A model generated the notes under the pieces. That model was given only the letters and a program-made list of their open reading frames with translations, had not been told where the DNA came from and made no database searches. Source: Candidatus Endomicrobiellum trichonymphae (GTDB lineage Bacteria > Elusimicrobiota > Endomicrobiia > Endomicrobiales > Endomicrobiaceae). From it: a stretch of 64,000 nt of DNA. Location of the stretch: positions 1 to 64,000 of the forward strand of contig NZ_AP017459.1 of NCBI RefSeq assembly GCF_002355835.1. Reading direction: 5' to 3'. This document shows positions 1 through 9,274 of this stretch, piece after piece (position 1 is the first letter of the stretch; each line of letters starts with the position of its first letter). Position numbers and translations under genes: made by a program.

Positions 1-618
1 ATGAGAATTTCCGTACCTGATTTATGGCAAAAGGTCATAAACAATATTAAATTGTCCGTAACACCTGAAACTTATAATCTGTGGATTTCACCTATAAAAC
101 CTCTAACCCTTGAAAACAATATATTTACTTTAGAAGTGCCAAATATCTATTTTTCACAGTGGATAACAAACAACAAAAAAAATATTGAGCAAATTTTATC
201 CGATTTATGTGGACAACAGATAGCTTTAGAGTTAAAACCACATCAAAATATATCCGACATAATAAAAAAAGTTGAAGATATGCCTGATCATGAAGATGTT
301 CGAGTGCTGATAATGCAGAAAGATCAGATAAATCCTAAATACGTTTTTTCCGGCTTTGTTATCGGCGCTTCAAACAGATTTGCGCACGGATGTTCCGAAG
401 CGGTTGCAAAAAATCCCGGCAAACAGTTTAATCCTTTATTTCTTTACAGCGGAGTAGGACTAGGTAAAACGCATTTGTTAAACGCAATAGGCAATCACAT
501 AAAACAGTCAACGCCAAAACTAAAAGCTCTTTACGTCACCTGTGAGAAGTTCGTCACGGAATTTATAGAGTTAATACGATTTGATAAAATATCGTTTTTC
601 AAAAGCAAATACAGAAGT
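1..618 (+). pseudogene. dnaA: dnaA, 5' fragment (domains I-II and the Walker A half of domain III)
   Basis: This is the N-terminal part of the chromosomal replication initiator. Domain I covers about residues 1-80 (LWQKVINNIKLSV...). The AAA+ domain begins near residue 112 (KYVFSGFVIGASNRFA), with Walker A GVGLGKTH near residue 151. DnaA similarity stops after FFKSKYRS, at about nt 618. A normal protein would continue into the Walker B motif LLIDDIQF, but that motif is found 6.3 kb downstream at 6941. The reading frame runs on to nt 723 with unrelated, insertion-derived residues. A product from this piece would have Walker A and no Walker B or DNA-binding domain, so it cannot act as an initiator. 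The ATG at nt 1 is taken as the start because domain I begins directly after it. Confidence 0.95.
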
Positions 619-626
619 TTAGTAGG

Positions 627-660
627 AACGAAGTATCGACCCTGTCTAATGTGCTTAATT
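627..660 (+). repeat. 34-bp unit-end repeat, copy 1
   Basis: The sequence beginning AACGAAGTATCGACCCTG is identical over 34 bp to 2937-2970. It lies within about 10 bp of the left dnaA junction. A shorter version is at 23518. It marks the start of each tandem unit and may be the recombination end of the element. Confidence 0.85.
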
Positions 661-770
661 GGAGTTTTCCGACTTTACTTGTGCTTGGAGAATGTCTGTA
701 TTTCTCTGGACATCGAGTATTAATTTGAGGCAAAAGACTTGATTAATTATTAAATTATAAATTATGAAAA

Positions 771-798
771 AGCCTGCAGAAATGCAGGCTCTTTTTTT
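771..798 (+). terminator. Rho-independent terminator upstream of truncated rep
   Basis: The stem AGCCTGCA / TGCAGGCT closes on a GAAA tetraloop and is followed directly by CTTTTTTT. It is duplicated at 3063-3090. It would insulate rep transcription from upstream transcription. Confidence 0.85.
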
Positions 799-808
799 GC
801 GTTGTGTT

Positions 809-831
809 ATGTGTTTTCGGTTTGGTTTTTT
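809..831 (+). repeat. Single residual iteron of unit 1
   Basis: One ATGTGTTTTCGGTTTGG unit followed by a T-run matches the last iteron of the array at 3101-3321. Unit 1 therefore has one iteron where unit 2 has about ten, which suggests contraction by recombination between repeats. Confidence 0.75.
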
Positions 832-918
832 TGGCAAAAAGTGGCTATAAATAAGGATTTGGCTTACTCTCTATCTCTAACTACTCTATTGCTACTAAGT
901 CTGGCAGACAATTTTTGA

Positions 919-1950
919 GATTTTAAAAAGATAAAAAGCAAAGAATTTAACGGCAAGCCTTATTATAAAAATTACAAAGAGATTGTATTAGTCGCAAAAG
1001 AAGCAAAGCAAATAAAAATAAAAGAGAACAATATTAAGAAAGTCGAGTTAACTTCAATGCCGACTAAATACGGCATAGAGAATGTAGCAACTTTCAATCT
1101 ATTCAATAGCAAGATGTTTACTTATCCAAACGACAAAAGAAAAAAAGCGAAAGTAAGTATGAAAATAAGATTTAACGATGGCACCAGCAAAGAGTATGAA
1201 TTGTACAGAGGACAGATTGCACGTCATAACGATACGGGAACAGGGCAATTAACAACAACGCACGCAAAGATATTCCTTGCCATCACACATATTTGGCAAG
1301 AGCAGAAAAGCAGATTCGCTAACGACAGCTATTGTGCCGTTGTTGATACTTCATTAACAGAAATCGCAAAGAAGTTAGGTTATAAAAAAGTAAGCGGAGC
1401 CGACCGAAGCAGAATACTGCAAAAGATAAAAGAGATGGTATATTTTTATATGATGGTTTCAGACGGGGTACGAGATTGCGGATTTTCACTTTTAAACAAT
1501 ATTATCGTATGGGATAAAGAAGACCGCAAAGAGAACAATTACAAATCAACGATAAGAATTTCTATAAGTCCATTCGTTTCAAAACAATTATACGACAGAA
1601 AAATTATTATGAGAAAACCTCAATGCTATAAGATTAAAAATCCTACGGCTATTAAATTCCTGTTATGTTATGACAAAAGAATAGTTGCGGGAAACAGCTT
1701 AAGAATGAATATATCCGAAGTAGCAAATGATTTGGAAATAAATATATCTACTAATAAATCAATGATAATTGAAGTACTAAACAATGCATTAAAAGAATTA
1801 AACGGCTACGAACTTAACGATAGTTATCGCTTGTATGTAGAATTAGTTAAAGAGGAAAAGGAATGGATTGTCGTTGCCGACCGTATCTTAAAAGAGAAAC
1901 AACAATCATTAGAAGTGAACTGCAGAACTGACATAGAATGCGAAGCATAA
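919..1950 (+). pseudogene. Truncated plasmid replication initiator (unit 1), lacks DnaA-like domain
   Basis: This is a paralogue of the rep gene at 3476-4732. It aligns with it from KFNGKPYF (here EFNGKPYY, about nt 937) to near the C-terminus. The open frame starts after a TGA at 916-918 and has no ATG until 1057 (MPTKYGIENVATF). That ATG has no clear ribosome-binding site. The first ~95 residues of the full-length paralogue (DnaA-like domain I and part of the linker) are missing. The deletion joins the A-rich rep leader to the A-rich linker. The winged-helix core (LTTTHAKIFLAITHIWQEQ) and the C-terminal part are open. It is probably a non-functional copy. If translated from 1057, the 297-aa product would have the DNA-binding core without the helicase-contact domain. 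Confidence 0.7.
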
Positions 1951-1971
1951 GAGGAGCGAAGCTCCGTGCTT
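1943..1971 (+). terminator. Two-tier stem-loop after truncated rep
   Basis: An outer stem AAGCA/TGCTT encloses an inner stem GGAGC-GAA-GCTCC, followed by a pyrimidine-rich tract. The same structure follows the second rep at 4744-4772. It could be a terminator or a structured plasmid element such as a single-strand origin. Confidence 0.5.
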
Positions 1972-2355
1972 GTCTTTCCTATCTTAAAATACTGCCCTCA
2001 AAAAGCTCAAATCTAAAGGTAAATATAGTCATATCAAACATTGTCTAACATTCTGTCTTTGAAAAAAAAGCTATGATAAAATATTAAGTGGAATATAAAA
2101 AAGAAACTGACTATTATGAAAACGATATGCGTCATATTGCTGACGCTCTAAAACTTGAAAAATATTTGTTCAAATAGTATCCGTATCAGCAAGGATATAG
2201 GCATTATAACTCTACTTGATGTATATAATTGCCCACTGTAAATAGATTTGAGGGTCAAAAATGACTGACTTCCACCCACGTTTAGACCCTTCAAAAATAT
2301 ATTTAGTCCAGCCAAATAGTGATAATTCTCTTAATCTGTAAGCAGAGATATTCTT
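1972..2355. other. Intergenic part of unit 1 with decayed remnants
   Basis: No convincing gene is present. The first ~70 bp are collinear with 4773-4850 of unit 2. A short frame near 2090 ends in RHIADALKLEKYLFK, which resembles the tail of an XRE-type regulator but is too short to support. ACTTGATGTATATAAT near 2215 recurs near 5108 in unit 2, indicating a deletion between the shared blocks. Confidence 0.5.
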
Positions 2356-2499
2356 ATGAAAAAAACTAATAATAAATATAATAAAGATAAATATAAACCC
2401 ATAGAAAATGCATTTCCTATTAACAATCCGTTTAGAAGTTCTAGAACTGTTCAAAAAGCTTTAAAAATAATTAATAAAAAGGTTGTTAAAAAAGATTAA
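2356..2499 (+). CDS. Small basic protein, 47 aa (unit 1)
   Basis: The product starts MKKTNNKYNKDKYKP and ends in KKVVKKD. It is very rich in Lys and Asn, with an IENAFPINNPFR segment. A second copy at 6382-6510 has nearly the same sequence but lacks five residues near the N-terminus. Conservation of the frame in both diverged units, and of the order small ORF then lipoprotein, supports a real gene. The stop is 8 bp before the lipoprotein start, and the lipoprotein's ribosome-binding site (TGAGGAT) abuts the stop. No family is recognised. Its charge would suit nucleic-acid binding or a membrane-associated regulator, but there is no motif to decide. Confidence 0.55.
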   Translation: MKKTNNKYNKDKYKPIENAFPINNPFRSSRTVQKALKIINKKVVKKD

Positions 2500-2507
2500 A
2501 TGAGGAT

Positions 2508-2726
2508 ATGATTGTAATTAAATTTAAAAAAATATTTGCTGTGATTTTAATGTTGTCTGTGTTCTTGTCTGGCTGTCAGAGGAAGGTTATAACAGGCGTT
2601 TCTAAAAATAAAAATGATGTTTCAACTTTAACGAATACTCCTGCTCCATGGGATAATGATACATGGTGGGATGGTCATAAGTTTACCGAAGCTACTAAGA
2701 ACTTGTTACGGCCTTGGGATGATTAG
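2508..2726 (+). CDS. Small lipoprotein, 72 aa (unit 1)
   Basis: A short basic start (MIVIKFKK) is followed by a hydrophobic core (IFAVILMLSVF) and the lipobox LSGC, so cleavage would leave Cys23 lipidated. The mature part is about 50 residues, rich in Asn, Thr and Trp, with no recognised domain. The first ~45 residues are almost identical to the lipoprotein at 6519. After NTPAP the two diverge completely, so the 3' ends have been replaced or shifted in at least one copy. A good Shine-Dalgarno (TGAGGAT) precedes the ATG. It resembles small plasmid or phage lipoproteins in size, such as lysis or exclusion proteins, but no specific function can be assigned. Confidence 0.6.
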   Translation: MIVIKFKKIFAVILMLSVFLSGCQRKVITGVSKNKNDVSTLTNTPAPWDNDTWWDGHKFTEATKNLLRPWDD

Positions 2727-2936
2727 TTGTCTGCGCCTACTCCATCGCTTACTCCTACTTCACCAGAGCCTGCGTCTCAAGGCAAACTCAAAAAAATGGC
2801 GTTGTTATGCCCGCCATTAACACAATTTTCTTTTATGTCGCCCGCACTTGTTTCCCCAATCATATCAATTTCAAGAGCAGCGCTCTTAGCTGTGCCAACT
2901 GTCTGCGGAATGTGGTTCGCACTATTCTCTTATAGA
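2727..2936 (+). other. Non-coding or decayed 3' segment of unit 1
   Basis: This stretch follows the lipoprotein stop and is collinear with 6712-6930 of unit 2 (shared CTCAAAAAAATGGCGTTG and GCGCTCTTA.CTGTGCCAA). An open frame exists here but its counterpart in unit 2 is in a different frame, so protein coding is not supported. Near its end, TTCGCAC...TTATAGAAAC (2916-2939) has the arm arrangement of a weak dif-like site. Confidence 0.45.
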
Positions 2937-2970
2937 AACGAAGTATCGACCCTGTCTAATGTGCTTAATT
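2937..2970 (+). repeat. 34-bp unit-end repeat, copy 2
   Basis: Identical over 34 bp to 627-660, this marks the junction between the two tandem units. Similarity to unit 1 continues through the downstream terminator. Confidence 0.85.
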
Positions 2971-3062
2971 TGAGTTTGCTAGCTCTCTGCATTGGAAGTG
3001 TACGCTTATTTAGAATTCTACGTTAAAAACTCGATTAATTATTAAATTATAAATTATGAAAA

Positions 3063-3090
3063 AGCCTGCAGAAATGCAGGCTCTTTTTTT
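3063..3090 (+). terminator. Rho-independent terminator upstream of iterons and rep
   Basis: The stem AGCCTGCA / TGCAGGCT with a GAAA loop and CTTTTTTT tail is identical to 771-798. It sits about 10 bp before the iteron array. Confidence 0.85.
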
Positions 3091-3100
3091 GTGTTGTGTT

Positions 3101-3321
3101 ATGTGTTAGTAGTTTGTTATAATATGTGTTCCTAGTTTGGTTTTTATGCGTTGGTAGTTTGGTTTTTATGCGTTGGTAGTTTGGTTTTTATGTGTTAGTA
3201 GTTTGGTTTTTATGTGTTGGTAGTTTGGTTTTTATGTGTTAGTAGTTTGGTTTTTATGTGTTAGTAGTTTGGTTTTTATGTGTTTTCGGTTTGGTTTTTA
3301 TGTGTTTTCGGTTTGGTTTTT
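3101..3321 (+). repeat. Iteron array: about ten 22-bp direct repeats (candidate plasmid origin)
   Basis: Direct repeats of ATGTGTTAGTAGTTTGGTTT plus TT start at 3101, 3124, 3146, 3168, 3190, 3212, 3234, 3256, 3278 and 3300. The first two are degenerate (the first spacing is 23 bp); the rest are exactly 22 bp apart. Variation is confined to TTAGTAGT, TTGGTAGT and TTTTCGGT. A repeat of two helical turns lying 154 bp upstream of a Rep gene is the hallmark of iteron-controlled plasmid origins, where the repeats are Rep-binding sites. The region that follows (GGCTATAAATAAGG...) is AT-rich and could be the melting region. There are no spacers, so it is not a CRISPR. Confidence 0.9.
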
Positions 3322-3475
3322 ATGGCAAAAAGTGGCTATAAATAAGGATTTGGCTTACTCTCTATCTCTATTACTACTATTAAAGACTATGTCTGCCTAA
3401 AGTCTGGCAGACAATTTCCTTTTGAAATTTTAAAAGAAAAAAAAGACAAAAAACCAAAGAAATAAAGGATAAAAA

Positions 3476-4732
3476 ATGTGGAATGAAATCATTACAGAAT
3501 TAAAAGAAAAAATACCGACTGAATGGCTTGAACCAATAAAAGAGGAAAGCTTTAAAGACGATATGTTAACGCTTGCTGTTCCTGATACATATTATGCTCA
3601 AAAGTATGAAACTGATTATAAACCATTAATTCAAAATATACTAAAAGCAAAAACAGGCAAAGCCGTCGGCTTGCAATTTCAAATTGTTGCTTCTAAATTA
3701 CTGGCAGAGCCTGTTATAAAAGACGAAAAGCCAAAAACGCAATTAATGAAAAAAACGAAGTTTAACGGCAAGCCCTATTTTAAAAATTCTGCGGAGCTTG
3801 CATTGGTTGCAAGAGACGCAATTCAAGTAAAAAATATAGATACTCAAAATGCCGAGTTAACTTCAATGCCGAGTAAATACGGCATAAAAGATGTCGTATC
3901 TTTTTGCCTCTTTAATAGCAAAATGTTTACTTATCCAAATGATAAAAGAAAAAAAGTTAAAGTTAGTATGGATGTAAGGTTTAGTAATGGCACTCTTAAA
4001 ACGTTTGATTTATATCGAGGTCAAATTACGTTTAATGATGTTGGTCGTGGACAGTTGACAACAACGCACGCAAAGATATTCCTTGCCATTATTCATATTT
4101 GGCAAGAGCAGGGTTGTAAGTTTGCGGATAATAAGGGCTTTTATGCAGTTGTTGATATTTCAATGCGGGAGCTTGCTAAACGGTTAGGCTATCAAAAATT
4201 AAGCGGAGCCGACGTAAAGCGATTGACTGTATTGACTAACGACCTTGTCGATTTCCCTATGATACTTTCTGATGGATATACGGCTTATACTTTTACATTC
4301 TTGTTTGACGTTGTTGCCCGCACTTTTAAAAAGAGCAGAAGCAATAGGACTATGTTGAGATTAACTATTAATCCTTTTATTTCAAAACAATTTTACGATA
4401 GAAAGGTTTTCTTAAGAAATCCTCAATGCTATAAAATCAAAAATCCTACTGCTATTAAATTTCTGTTATGTTATGACAAAAGAATAGTTAAAGGAAATGG
4501 TTTAAAACTAAATATATCTGAAGTCGCAAATGATTTGGAAATTCTAACAGAGCAAAAATCAATAGTTGCCGAACATTTGGGAAATGCGTTTCAGGAGTTA
4601 AACGGATACGAACTTAACGATAGGTATCGCTTGTATGTAGAATTAGTTAAAGAAGAAAGGGAATGGATTGTCGTTGCTGAACGTATCTTAAAAGAAAAAA
4701 CAACAATCATTAAAAGTGAACTGCAGAACTGA
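3476..4732 (+). CDS. Iteron-type replication initiator with DnaA domain I-like N-terminus
   Basis: The 418-aa protein begins at an ATG preceded by AAAGGATAAAA. Residues 1-75 (MWNEIITELKEKI, TEWLEPIK, DDMLTLAVPDTYY, LIQNILKAKTG) align with the N-terminus of this genome's own DnaA (LWQKVINNIK, LWISPIK, NIFTLEVPNIYF, NIEQILSDLCG). In DnaA this domain contacts the replicative helicase. A linker to about residue 130 leads to the conserved core (SMPSKYGIKDVVSF, FNSKMFTYPNDKRKK). Winged-helix-like segments follow (LTTTHAKIFLAIIHIWQEQ; YKIKNPTAIKFLLCYDKR ... LNISEVANDLEI), as in plasmid Rep proteins. It lies just downstream of the iteron array, its likely target. Unlike the upstream copy it has no visible lesion. 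The Rep assignment comes from layout and fold-like pattern; the DnaA-like N-terminus is directly visible. Confidence 0.85.
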   Translation: MWNEIITELKEKIPTEWLEPIKEESFKDDMLTLAVPDTYYAQKYETDYKPLIQNILKAKTGKAVGLQFQIVASKLLAEPVIKDEKPKTQLMKKTKFNGKPYFKNSAELALVARDAIQVKNIDTQNAELTSMPSKYGIKDVVSFCLFNSKMFTYPNDKRKKVKVSMDVRFSNGTLKTFDLYRGQITFNDVGRGQLTTTHAKIFLAIIHIWQEQGCKFADNKGFYAVVDISMRELAKRLGYQKLSGADVKRLTVLTNDLVDFPMILSDGYTAYTFTFLFDVVARTFKKSRSNRTMLRLTINPFISKQFYDRKVFLRNPQCYKIKNPTAIKFLLCYDKRIVKGNGLKLNISEVANDLEILTEQKSIVAEHLGNAFQELNGYELNDRYRLYVELVKEEREWIVVAERILKEKTTIIKSELQN

Positions 4733-4743
4733 CATAGAATGCG

Positions 4744-4772
4744 AAGCATAAGAGGAGCGAAGCTCCGTGCTT
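4744..4772 (+). terminator. Two-tier stem-loop after full-length rep
   Basis: It has the same AAGCA..GGAGC-GAA-GCTCC..TGCTT structure as 1943-1971 and lies 12 bp after the rep stop. It is a probable terminator or structured plasmid element. Confidence 0.5.
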
Positions 4773-5537
4773 GTCTTCCCTCTCTTACTTAAAAGCCTGC
4801 CTTTAAAAAACTCAAATCTAAAAGTAAAGATAGTCATATCAAACGTTGTCTAAAATCTTGTCTTTAAAATCTATTCTGTTTACTTTTAAAACGTAAAAAA
4901 ACTATTAAAAATCGTAAAAACTGTGTTAAAGGCGCGCTGGCGCCTCAAATAACGCAAAAATTACATTAAGAACGTCATAAAATGTCAAAATATGTCAGTA
5001 TTGTGTCATAATAAGGAATTATCACATAGTCTAAAGCCTTAAAATTGTATTAGCACGCTGTCCACATTGTTTTTGATTATTGTGGAAAAATGTGAAAAAA
5101 AACCTTACTTGATGTATATAATGCCCATTGCGTACCAATTTCAGGAAAAAAATGCCAGTTGGATATACTTGATATGCAATTGGCTGACTTGTTTCAAAAA
5201 GACACCGATTGTACCTCAAAATAACAGCGATAGTTTATGAAAGCGTAAAAAGCTAAGACGTTATGATAATGCTTAGTCGCTGTTTGTAAATATGGCGAAA
5301 AAATGTATTATATGTTTATAGGCTCGTACAACATTTGGATAATGCTTGTGATATATAAATAGTCAAAAGCCGTCTTAAAGTAGACGGCAAAAAAACTAAA
5401 AAAAGTGAGCGAAGCGAACACCTATTATACTTGATATACATATCAAAAAATAGACCCGAATAAAACTTATCTGCTTTGTTATACAAACTTACCTTAAAAT
5501 CCACGAAAAAAAATATCTGGACAGTTTAAAGAAAAAA
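4773..5537. other. Intergenic part of unit 2 with DnaA-box-like sites and hairpins
   Basis: No convincing gene is present. Visible features are a hairpin GGCGC-GCTG-GCGCC near 4933, several GTCATAA/ATGTCA motifs at 4974-5012, and two divergent DnaA-box-like 9-mers, CTGTCCACA (5058-5066) and TGTGGAAAA (5081-5089, the reverse of TTTTCCACA). The block ACTTGATGTATATAAT recurs from unit 1. It could hold accessory origin elements. Confidence 0.4.
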
Positions 5538-6333
5538 ATGAAATTGAAAAAAACTTTATGCGTATATTTAACGCTTGTTCTGTTTTTGACAGGCTGTGGA
5601 AATCTTAAAAGCCATATAAGAGGTAATCAGAATACTGACGCTTTCTGCCGACCAGCAGACAGGCAATATTATAAAAAGCGATAATAGTGGAATAATTGAA
5701 AAAGAGGAAATAAAAAAATTTGACTATAAAGTAATTGGATTAGTTGGATTAGACGATGATGGCGATTTATTTCAAGATGAAGATGAAAAGGAGAAAACTT
5801 CCAGCAAAGAACCAGAGCTGATGTGGCAGGATAAGGCGAAAAAGTATGCTGGTGATGCTGGACACTTTTTGTATGAACATAAAGGGAAGATAGCTTTTGC
5901 TGTGGTAGTAGTAGCTGGTGTTTACTGGTTCGGGATAAGACCTATAAAAACGGGCTACCCGTACAACCAGAAGTCTTACAACTACGACAACAACAAGCTT
6001 TACAACAATACCAACAGCAACAGCACGAAATAGAAGCACTATTTGTACCAGACGACTTGTTAGACACGGATAGGACCGAGCTGGATGTGATGTTATCTGA
6101 CCTATAAAGACAACTAACCCAACTATACCAACTACAAGAACTACTACTACTACAACGACAATTACAACAAAGACTGCTTTTAGCACAAGAACGGCAACAA
6201 CTATTACAACTACAAATAAGTCTTTCTACAACACCAAACAATGCCATTTCTGCAAATAGAATACTTAGGGTACCAACATCGATTAACACAACAATTATTG
6301 CAACAAGAACAACAACTAGCAGAACAACTATGA
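5538..6333 (+). pseudogene. Decayed lipoprotein gene with transmembrane segment and Gln-rich tail
   Basis: The start (MKLKKTLCVYLTLVLFLTGC) is a lipoprotein signal with lipobox LTGC. After ~30 residues the frame shifts to LTLSADQQTGNIIKSDNSG, an acidic stretch (GLDDDGDLFQDEDEKEK), then MWQDKAKKYAGDAGHFLYEH and a transmembrane segment (IAFAVVVVAGVYWFGI). A second shift leads into a Gln/Leu-rich coiled region (VLQLRQQQALQQYQQQQ, RQLTQLYQLQELLLLQRQ) broken by a stop after DVMLSDL. A further shift gives QHRLTQQLLQQEQQLAEQL and the end. At least three frame changes and one in-frame stop make it a pseudogene. It is present only in unit 2. The original product would have been a lipid-anchored or membrane-spanning protein with a coiled tail. 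No family is recognised. Confidence 0.6.
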
Positions 6334-6381
6334 CTACAAGCAGTATAATATTTTAAATAAATTAAAATGAGAGATATTCTT

Positions 6382-6510
6382 ATGAAAAAAACTAAAGATA
6401 AATATAAACCCATAGGAAATGCATTTCCTATTAACAATCCGTTTAGAGGTTCTAGAACTGTCCAAAAGGTTTTAAAAATAATTAATAAAAAAGTTGTTAA
6501 AAAAGATTAA
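6382..6510 (+). CDS. Small basic protein, 42 aa (unit 2)
   Basis: This is the paralogue of 2356-2499, starting MKKTKDKYKPIGNAFPINNP. It may instead start at the in-frame ATG at 6367 (MRDIL). It differs from the unit 1 copy mainly by a five-residue deletion that preserves the frame, and by a few substitutions. Its stop is 8 bp before the lipoprotein start at 6519, the same arrangement as in unit 1. The function is unknown. Confidence 0.55.
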   Translation: MKKTKDKYKPIGNAFPINNPFRGSRTVQKVLKIINKKVVKKD

Positions 6511-6518
6511 ATGAGGAT

Positions 6519-6785
6519 ATGACTGTAGTGAAATTAAAAAAAATATTTGCTGTGATTTTAATGTTGTCTGTGTTCTTGTCTGGCTGTCATAGGCAGGTTA
6601 TAACAGGTATTTCTAAAAATAAAAATGATGTTTCAACTTCAACGAATACTCCTGCTCCAGAGGACTACGCCTACTACTCGGTCTTGGCTTTGGTAATTTC
6701 CATCGTCTACGCCTGCTCCTACTTCACCAGAAGACTACGTCTCAAGACAAACTCAAAAAAATGGCGTTGTTATGCCCGCCATTAA
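6519..6785 (+). CDS. Small lipoprotein with second hydrophobic segment, 88 aa (unit 2)
   Basis: The signal and lipobox (FAVILMLSVFLSGC) are almost identical to the unit 1 copy. After NTPAP the sequence becomes EDYAYYSVLALVISIVYACSYF, a hydrophobic segment, then a basic tail (RRLRLKTNSKKW). The frame downstream of NTPAP differs from unit 1, so one or both 3' ends are probably frameshifted. Alternatively the variable tail could be selected diversity. A small membrane lipoprotein of unknown function is all that can be said. Confidence 0.5.
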   Translation: MTVVKLKKIFAVILMLSVFLSGCHRQVITGISKNKNDVSTSTNTPAPEDYAYYSVLALVISIVYACSYFTRRLRLKTNSKKWRCYARH

Positions 6786-6925
6786 CGCAATTAATACTGG
6801 TTGAAGGTTTGACATTGCTAATTCTGTAATCCGCGAATTAGTTCTGTATCTCTTTTCTTTTATGCCGACCGCACTTAGTTCACCAATCATATTAACTTCA
6901 AGGTTAGCGCTCTTAACTGTGCCAA

Positions 6926-7656
6926 TTGTCGGCGCACTGTCTATTGATAGACGACATACAGTTTCTAGTAGGCAAGGAAGGCTCGCAGGAAGAATTTTTC
7001 CACATGTTTAACAGTCTAAAAAAGCAGATAGTCATTTCGTCTGACAGACCGCCTAAAGATCTCAAAGACGTTGAAGAAAGACTCATTTCAAGATTTGAAT
7101 GGGGTATTATAGCTGATATACAGCCACCGGATTTAGAGACAAGAATCGCAATTTTACGCAAAAAATCCGAAGAGGAAAAAATATATATCCCTGATGATGT
7201 TATTTTACATATAGCAACGCAGATCAAGTCAAACATAAGACAACTTGAGGGATCGCTTCTGAGAATAACAGCTTTTTTCAGCATTTACAGGAACACCTTT
7301 AACTGTGGATTCCGCACAAAAAATGCTCAAAATCATTAGAATAAATAACTCCGAACATATACAATAGAAAATATACAAAAAGCTATTTCAGACGATTTCA
7401 ACATAGAAATAAAAGATATGAAATCAAAACGCAGGACAGACGCCGTTGCATTTCCAAGGCAAATCGCAATGTATCTTGCGAGAACGCTAACCGATGAATT
7501 TTCAACCAATGCTATTAGTTAGGCGAAGCGTTCGGCGGAAGAGATTACTCAACCGTCATGCACGCCTGCAATAAGATAAAAGAAAAAATGGACTCCGATC
7601 CATATTTTAACGCTAAAATTAATAAAATTATCAAAAAAATACGAAGCGAGCAATAA
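6926..7656 (+). pseudogene. dnaA: dnaA, 3' fragment (Walker B half of domain III and domain IV), frameshifted
   Basis: DnaA similarity resumes with [20 protein letters not shown] (Walker B) and runs through the sensor region ([14 protein letters not shown]), [19 protein letters not shown] and [15 protein letters not shown]. About three residues are missing in FNSL-KKQIV. An extra T near 7275 shifts the frame; the correct frame continues as [19 protein letters not shown] and meets a stop. It reopens as [19 protein letters not shown], hits another stop after STNAIS, and ends with the domain IV signature GEAFGGRDYSTVMHACNKI. Multiple lesions beyond the insertion show that dnaA is dead and decaying, not simply split into two working parts. 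Confidence 0.93.
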
Positions 7657-7877: not shown

Positions 7878-8999
7878 ATGAAAGTAATTTGTGAAAAAGA
7901 AGAATTAATGAGAGGAATTCAGATGGTATCTCCAGTAACACCATCTAAAAATACACTTCCTGCTTTGTCAAACATTCTATTCGAAGCCGAAAGAGATAAA
8001 ATAAAACTTTCATCCACAGATCTTGAAATAGCTGTACAGTGTTATATTAAGGGAGAAATAACAGAAGATGGTGGAATTACGATACCCTCTAAGAGATTTG
8101 CAAACATTATAAAAGAGCTTTCTACTGACGACGAAATAGAAATTAAAGCCGATGAAACAAATCAGATAAATATTAAATCCGGAAAATCAAAATTTAATCT
8201 TATGGGAATTTCAAAAACAGAATACCCTGTAATACCGGAACCTCCTAAGAACAACAATTTTACTATTAAAAGAGGAATATTTGCCTCAATGCTCAAAAAG
8301 ATTGTTTTTGCAGCGTCAAGAGATTCACAAAGATACGTTTTGAACGGAATTTATTTTATACTTGGAGACAGCAAACTTACAATGGTTGCCACAGACGGCA
8401 GAAGACTTGCTTATGCTAAGACTAATATAACACAAGCAGAGGTAAAAGGAAAAGCTATCGTTCCGACAAAAGCAGTAAATGATATATTAAGACTTCTTTA
8501 TTCAGATATAAACTCTGAAGACATGAGAATCGGCATCTCGGACAATCGAATCTCTGCAGAAATCGATGATATAACTCTACTTTCAACGCTTATAGAAGGA
8601 GTGTTTCCAAACTATGAGCAAGTTATACCTAAAAAATCAGATTTAAAGATAAAACTTAATGTGAAAAACACACTTACTGCGGTAAAACAAATGGCTCTTT
8701 TGACTGATAACCACCTTTCGTCAGATAGATCGTCAGCAGTGAAGTTTTATTTTAGCCAGGATCTTTTGAAAATCTCAGCTTCATCAGCTGGAATCGGTTC
8801 AGGCGAAACCGACCTTGAAATTGAATATAAAAATGATCCGGCAGAGATTAATTTTAACCCAGATTTTATAAAAGAAATTTTCCAAAGCATTGATGAATAT
8901 TCAGCGATATTTGAATTTACTAATTCTTTAAATCCTGCGGTAATATATCCTGAAACAGATGAAAACTATCTTTGTGTCGTGATGCCGATGAGAGTATAG
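7878..8999 (+). CDS. dnaN: DNA polymerase III beta subunit (sliding clamp)
   Basis: This 373-aa protein matches the usual clamp length and has three repeated clamp domains. It begins MKVICEKEELMRGIQMVSPV, with recognisable landmarks FATDGRRLAYAK-like MVATDGRRLAYAKTN near residue 170 and a C-terminal YLCVVMPMRV, the canonical (V)MPMR end. It forms the dimeric ring that tethers DNA polymerases to DNA. The start is supported by GGGAG 8 bp upstream. It lies directly after the dead dnaA, as in most bacteria, and is followed 2 bp later by the DciA-like gene, so the dnaN-dciA-gyrB order suggests a replication operon. Confidence 0.98.
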   Translation: MKVICEKEELMRGIQMVSPVTPSKNTLPALSNILFEAERDKIKLSSTDLEIAVQCYIKGEITEDGGITIPSKRFANIIKELSTDDEIEIKADETNQINIKSGKSKFNLMGISKTEYPVIPEPPKNNNFTIKRGIFASMLKKIVFAASRDSQRYVLNGIYFILGDSKLTMVATDGRRLAYAKTNITQAEVKGKAIVPTKAVNDILRLLYSDINSEDMRIGISDNRISAEIDDITLLSTLIEGVFPNYEQVIPKKSDLKIKLNVKNTLTAVKQMALLTDNHLSSDRSSAVKFYFSQDLLKISASSAGIGSGETDLEIEYKNDPAEINFNPDFIKEIFQSIDEYSAIFEFTNSLNPAVIYPETDENYLCVVMPMRV

Positions 9000-9001
9000 A
9001 A

Positions 9002-9274
9002 GTGTCTTGGACGCGGTCTGAGGAAATAATTAGTTTATTAAAGAAAAAGCTGGGTTTAGACGAAGATTTTTTTATTGTAAGGAAAAGCTGGGAGAAAGAA
9101 ATAGCTATAAGCGGCATTGAGATAAGTGGATATAAAAGCGGCACGATTTTTGCACAGACGCAGAGTTCAACTGCGAGCTTCGAGCTTACAGCTCGCAAAA
9201 AGGAAATAATAAAAAAGTTAAATCAGTATATCGGCAGTTCAAAAATAAAGAATATAAAAGTAGAGATAAAATAG
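9002..9274 (+). CDS. dciA: DciA-like DUF721 protein (replicative helicase operator)
   Basis: About 90 aa. The GTG at 9002 is preferred (two bases after the dnaN stop); an in-frame TTG at 8972 overlapping dnaN is possible. The sequence has the DUF721 pattern: an N-terminal helix (ISLLKKKLGLDEDFFIVRKSW), the ISGYKSGTIFAQTQSSTASFEL strand region, and a C-terminal helix (KKEIIKKLNQYIG). DciA proteins recruit and load the replicative helicase DnaB in bacteria that lack DnaC. The position between dnaN and gyrB matches the location of DciA genes in many bacteria. In a genome with no working DnaA it is a candidate partner for whatever initiates replication. Family assignment is by pattern and position. 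Confidence 0.75.
   Translation: MSWTRSEEIISLLKKKLGLDEDFFIVRKSWEKEIAISGIEISGYKSGTIFAQTQSSTASFELTARKKEIIKKLNQYIGSSKIKNIKVEIK

Follow-up and report, generated by a model that had tools for sequence, protein, structure and literature searches.

How does an endosymbiont whose dnaA gene has been destroyed still start replication of its chromosome, and what is a plasmid initiator doing inside that gene? The stretch of DNA analysed here (64,000 nucleotides, called the window throughout) raises both questions. It covers the opening 64 kb of a chromosome contig of 1,114,532 bp; the genome consists of four contigs, totals 1.13 Mb and is 99.6% complete. Within it, dnaA lies in two parts on either side of 6.3 kb of plasmid-like DNA, and the inserted DNA encodes a replication initiator, Rep (Table 1). 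A reading made from the sequence alone had proposed that the N-terminus of Rep corresponds to domain I of DnaA, the part that contacts the replicative helicase. The plasmids pTGRD1, 2 and 3 belong to Candidatus Endomicrobium trichonymphae, a symbiont from the Elusimicrobiota that lives within the cells of Trichonympha in the termite gut. Their first genes are 67-76% identical to Rep, and the proteins of these genes are annotated as hypothetical only; the genome analysed is therefore probably from this species or from a very near relative of it.

Table 1. Features of the interrupted dnaA locus and of the initiator gene within it, in window coordinates.
Feature	Position	Strand	Evidence and remarks
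dnaA 5' part: domain I, domain II, first half of AAA+	1..622	+	Open to the insertion; Pfam DnaA_N 2.7e-10, Bac_DnaA 2.6e-34; relic alignment
Inserted DNA, two tandem plasmid-like units (about 623-2932 and 2933-6935)	623..6935	.	Repeat families D2-D17; similarity to pTGRD1-3 and contig C4
Rep of unit 1, core only	about 919..1950; first ATG 1057 (297 aa)	+	62% identity to residues 89-410 of Rep (3476-4732); no stops
Iteron array, 10.2 copies of a 22-bp repeat, consensus TTATGTGTTAGTAGTTTGGTTT	3099..3324	+	TRF, 91% matches
Rep initiator, 418 aa	3476..4732	+	ORF list, homology searches, predicted structure
DnaA domain I, Rep residues 1-73	3476..3694	+	Helix-helix-strand-strand-helix-strand; profile and fold evidence
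Flexible linker, Rep residues about 74-97	3695..3766	+	pLDDT below 50 over residues 73-97
Winged-helix initiator core, Rep residues about 98-410	3767..4705	+	Foldseek
dnaA 3' part, pseudogene with three frameshifting indels	6936..7655	+	75-79% identity in alignment to intact dnaA of relatives
373-aa ORF, dnaN by position and sequence (our own reading)	7878..8999	+	
DciA-like ORF, candidate helicase loader	8972..9274	+	Partial, weak PF05258 match, E 7.5e-4, below cut-off

Searches by phmmer, against the whole genome and with profiles agree that the Rep N-terminus aligns with that of DnaA. In phmmer, Rep residues 1-102 pair with residues 8-116 of the window DnaA; the whole-genome search gave 29% identity (E 9e-5), with residues 1-75 set against DnaA residues 8-82. 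As a single-sequence query, Rep retrieved the N-termini of DnaA ORFs of about 454 aa from some twenty relatives (E 3e-4 to 5e-7), and a profile built from eight Reps retrieved DnaA N-termini throughout the phylum, in about 200 genomes and nearly always over query positions 1 to about 120. The N-terminus of a related Rep, searched against a plasmid collection, matched outside Endomicrobium only genes annotated as dnaA, unannotated sites in records of chromosome size, and the Rep of one Rubrobacter plasmid. The NCBIfam DnaA model TIGR00362 matches Rep residues 3-95 (E 1.5e-6). Against Pfam DnaA_N (PF11638) the window Rep scores 19.9 bits, under the gathering cut-off of 24.6, probably because it and its pTGRD sisters are without four helix 2 residues that other Reps keep; we therefore place it in DnaA_N with its family and on the profile-profile comparison. 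Seven sister Reps pass the same cut-off with 26.6-41.2 bits (E-values 3.7e-10, 5.1e-6, 1.4e-10, 1.7e-7, 1.8e-10, 3.1e-7 and 2.7e-6). DnaX domain V was considered as the true relative and set aside, since it reached E-values of only 0.03-0.04 as against 6e-4 to 1.6e-3 for DnaA_N.

The predicted structure leads to the same place. An AlphaFold2 model of Rep built from 17 sequences (mean pLDDT 85) has helices at residues 2-9, 15-18 and 38-60 and strands at 22-27, 30-35 and 65-70, with pLDDT of 82-90 across residues 1-70. Foldseek matched this N-terminus to chains of Bacillus subtilis DnaA domain I (4tps) with an rmsd of 1.5-1.8 Å and a target TM of 0.73-0.78, and a profile of domain I only, searched against the PDB, put DnaA first (B. 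subtilis 1.7e-9, E. coli 4.3e-7, a third DnaA, 2z4r, 0.013). KH-like folds are common, and with the window Rep under the Pfam cut-off one could argue that its N-terminus merely resembles domain I by convergence. In hhalign, however, Rep domain I and DnaA domain I match at 99.3% with an E-value of 1.9e-20 over 76 columns, whereas the N-terminus of the clade-B Reps of other Elusimicrobiota, used as the negative control, reached 1.8%; the unbiased searches, moreover, retrieve DnaA specifically. Convergence is thus extremely improbable, and we take the profile-profile comparison with its control to rule it out. Residues 1-75 of Rep constitute a genuine domain I of DnaA, as both the profile searches and the structure prediction that the sequence-only reading had called for now establish.

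The remainder of the protein is of another kind. In Pfam, neither Bac_DnaA (AAA+ domain III) nor Bac_DnaA_C (the helix-turn-helix domain IV) has a match in Rep. Set beside DnaA domain I (PF11638; B. subtilis 4tps, E. coli 2e0g), Rep is alike in profile, in fold, in the N-terminal place of the domain and in the flexible linker after it, which on the model appears comparable to DnaA domain II; it differs in having no domain III or IV, in its plasmid-type DNA-binding core and in a helix 2 that is four residues shorter. The core is predicted to comprise two winged-helix domains of the RepE/pi/RctB fold. Its best Foldseek match is to domains 2-3 of RctB of Vibrio chromosome 2 (5tbf, E 2.1e-9), alongside RepE at about 5e-6 with other plasmid Reps and pi at 1.5e-3. 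The likeness to RctB, a plasmid-type initiator serving a chromosome, covers those two domains at about 12% identity and with no match at the level of sequence. With RepE of F and pi of R6K the window Rep shares the double winged-helix fold, and likewise iterons that are direct repeats some two helical turns long; to our knowledge, neither of these initiators, nor RepA of pSC101, carries a DnaA domain I. It differs from RepE and pi also in Pfam, where full-length Rep has no match to Rep_3 or RPA (0 families at E up to 10), and so we describe the core as having a RepE/RctB-type fold but lying outside Rep_3. Between this fold and the iterons adjoining the gene, the earlier description of the protein as a winged-helix plasmid initiator is well founded.

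Rep is found in 8 of the 77 Endomicrobiaceae genomes, and among the Elusimicrobiota genomes sampled the fusion is restricted to this family. The intact N-termini are domain I, except in one divergent Rep (L037, genome G010) that groups with the other Rep clade. In a tree of the core only, the Reps with domain I come together as one clade (support 100/100), and a single joining or replacement event is therefore enough to account for them. The clade-B Reps have the same core behind a different, four-helix N-terminus, which is conserved (L053-L062) and carries the motif NPAKYLT.LLK; scans of three of these N-termini gave no match in Pfam, a sequence search of the PDB gave none either, and the segment might be another helicase-recruiting module. 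The tree of domain I itself places the Reps outside the Endomicrobium DnaAs, does not resolve a single origin and names no donor; recent capture of the domain from the host's own DnaA finds no support in it. Phages gave no relatives of Rep in IMG/VR, and matches of the Reps to PHROG were at noise level. The strongest matches in phage-labelled records were to entire bacterial DnaA genes; four such records (MT839682, MT836192, MT839331 and MG065691) contain complete bacterial-type DnaA genes, which are probably contamination.

What would a DnaA domain I do on such a core? We think it probable that Rep is an iteron-type initiator of theta replication, built of domain I, a disordered linker and an RctB/RepE-like core, in which domain I allows the helicase to dock without DnaA. 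The core would bind the adjoining 22-bp iterons and open the origin; domain I would dock the host replicative helicase DnaB, which the genome encodes, perhaps with a loader of the DciA type; and the plasmid would thereby start replication without DnaA. The iteron initiators pi, RepE and pSC101 RepA are known to contact the helicase, and some hosts allow plasmids to replicate whether or not DnaA takes part (PMC4980987). Such initiators need a helicase contact, and domain I would be the part that supplies it here. As for freedom from DnaA, which the sequence-only reading had also proposed, the evidence is circumstantial: a plasmid contig whose domain-I Rep is intact (C4) persists in a cell without intact DnaA.

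The residues of the domain leave some room for other uses. Phe46 of E. coli DnaA is a helicase-contact residue (PMC4980987). Its counterpart is Tyr39 in the window Rep and Tyr in the host DnaA, while some sister Reps have Ile or Thr there; the contact residue is kept only loosely. The four helix 2 residues that this lineage has lost likewise count against helicase docking. DnaA domain I binds other partners too, so that helicase docking is not its sole possible role, and we allow a minor chance that the domain, though real, makes a different contact, either self-association of Rep on the iterons or pairing with host DnaA. Trp2, the counterpart of the self-association residue Trp6 of E. coli DnaA, is kept in most Reps, and a full-length DnaA ORF (about 454 aa) is kept in six or more of the other genomes with Rep, which means that a DnaA partner is available there. 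Pairing with DnaA fits poorly with the persistence of contig C4 where no intact DnaA is present, and self-association alone would leave the joining of this particular fold unexplained.

Arrays of 22-bp repeats lie upstream of most related Reps with sequences that differ between plasmids, and number ten in the window as against 4-5 in sister plasmids, while upstream of Rep in two relatives no array was detected. A DNA block at 3445-3745, which holds domain I and the start of the linker, matches pTGRD1 and pTGRD2 at 95-100% identity, whereas the rest of the gene is mostly 52-93% identical; against pTGRD2, dS is 0.03 in the domain I block and 0.73 in the core region. Domain I thus seems to have been exchanged as a block, with a break near the linker. 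Viewed over window positions 3385-3745, the domain I block is nearly identical to the plasmids of another strain while its surroundings have diverged, a pattern in the alignments that suggests recent exchange of the domain I module alone.

The sequence-only reading had called Rep a plasmid initiator. Its gene does come from a plasmid, but here it sits in a plasmid integrated into chromosomal dnaA, not on a free one. No target loss or duplication is obvious at the insertion, and the two flanks join in frame within the same codon; the 3' part of dnaA ends at a stop codon near 7655. A whole-genome search found no Bac_DnaA match beyond the two dnaA parts at this locus. Unit 1 of the insert has lost domain I and nearly all of its iterons, and unit 2 is complete. 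The Rep frames appear to have been under constraint, with dN/dS of 0.21-0.37 in the pairs of the unit 1 Rep and of 0.26-0.34 between the unit 2 Rep and plasmid Reps. Small related plasmids are present in the same genome, and an assembly error that fused one of them to the chromosome must be considered, but we regard it as very unlikely. Both junctions lie at one dnaA site, where the gene reads in frame again once its flanks are put together; the two inserted Reps and the C4 Rep are only 62-69% alike to one another, so that the insert was not copied from the C4 plasmid. Pseudogenisation of dnaA in E. trichonymphae is, besides, already reported (PMC10579323).

Several further traces of plasmids accompany this locus. 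The ends of the insert and the junction of its units (623-635, 2905-2945 and 6925-6950) have a short sequence in common, and about 25 bp are found solely at the inner junction; these are possibly a site-specific (Xer-like) plasmid site used in integration. A small, decayed fragment of a Rep core with several stops lies on the chromosome contig (C1) at 1070089-1070241 and is perhaps another old plasmid insertion. Contigs C2 (L030) and C3 (L031) are plasmid-like and have a pTGRD backbone in common, with no Rep of the domain-I family, and in C3 small lipoprotein-like ORFs occupy the position of the pTGRD2 rep; they might be satellites that lack a Rep of their own and rely on replication in trans, or else the contigs may be incomplete. 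A scan of the genome contigs found only three Reps, all of them already known.

It is tempting to ask whether the integrated plasmid now serves the chromosome. Two features of integrative suppression are present, the lack of a functional dnaA and a plasmid replicon integrated in the chromosome, and the cumulative GC skew forms a clear V with its minimum at position 540, the locus of the insert, and its maximum at 630,753. With the insert in a destroyed dnaA, no other dnaA in the genome and the skew minimum at this very place, the plasmid replicon may drive chromosome replication. This would be integrative suppression that arose in nature where oriC originally lay: the integrated iterons and Rep would be the chromosome origin, in place of DnaA and oriC. 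We put this forward as a tentative possibility, one that supplements the domain I initiator mechanism and does not exclude it. In its favour, dnaA is not only split by the insert but frameshifted, while Rep is open, was constrained and lies beside ten iterons where the sister plasmids have fewer. No exact TTATNCACA DnaA box occurs between -8 and +12 kb relative to position 1, as compared with about two on average in the 1.5 kb upstream of dnaA in 14 relatives, although 3 of those 14 likewise have none. There is a precedent in Synechococcus elongatus, in which dnaA deletion mutants segregated fully through plasmid integration that relocated the origin (PMC7198777).

The same evidence bears another reading. 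The skew records history and the ancestral origin was probably at the same place, so that a minimum at the insert cannot separate an old origin from a new one; PMC10579323, moreover, calls the GC skew of the dnaA-pseudogenised E. trichonymphae genome atypical. The dN/dS values may stem from selection that preceded integration, or from gene conversion with plasmids. The presence of PriA, intact, makes other DnaA-free initiation possible. The insert could accordingly be a passive relic in a dnaA that was already dispensable, with the chromosome starting by a PriA-dependent or some other route, and to this reading we give an even chance. Loss or pseudogenisation of dnaA is recorded in several endosymbionts (PMC10579323), and the state of unit 1, deprived of domain I and of nearly all its iterons, is what one might expect of a relic. 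What speaks against a relic is the absence of any stop or frameshift in either Rep frame (about 2.3 kb together) beside three frameshifts in the 1.35-kb dnaA relic, where a rough Poisson expectation would be about 5 for the Rep frames, on the assumption that decay began at integration.

The sequence-only reading had known of no initiator with this architecture, and for the arrangement found here that stands: in the literature searched we found no description of a fusion with an N-terminal DnaA domain I on an RctB/RepE-like core. It does not stand for the pairing of DnaA_N with plasmid proteins in general, as initiators with a C-terminal DnaA_N are known. The Rickettsia protein DALP is, like Rep, a plasmid protein with DnaA_N in an obligate intracellular lineage, but its DnaA_N is C-terminal and the remaining protein highly variable (PMC4316617), whereas in Rep the domain comes first. 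The Rep of a Rubrobacter tropicus plasmid (WP_166180863; RPA/Rep3_N with DnaA_N, at 1795-3243 of NZ_CP045120.1, L141) is a winged-helix initiator with DnaA_N (1.8e-10), but here too DnaA_N is C-terminal, and the initiator belongs to a different family (PF10134); it is a separate joining of the module. Similarity in a second Rubrobacter plasmid extends across the DnaA_N region. The S. elongatus mutants resemble the present case in the loss of dnaA and the integration of a plasmid replicon in the chromosome (PMC7198777), but they were selected in the laboratory, whereas the present case is natural and lies within dnaA itself.

In summary, in one clade of plasmid initiators from one bacterial family, the N-terminus is the module with which the chromosomal initiator recruits the helicase, and initiators related to them through a common core have a different module at that end. 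The modular view of initiators, with one part that reads DNA and another that brings the helicase, is thereby made directly testable. It is conceivable, though we would not lean on it, that a Rep which sets the helicase-recruiting domain of DnaA on an iteron-binding core drives the chromosome and so let DnaA be lost. With the Rep plasmid inside a destroyed dnaA at the apparent origin, Rep may have replaced DnaA in function, and this gives a concrete answer, one that can be tested, to the question of how chromosome replication still begins in an endosymbiont whose dnaA is dead: in this strain, a plasmid Rep may have taken over the job of DnaA.
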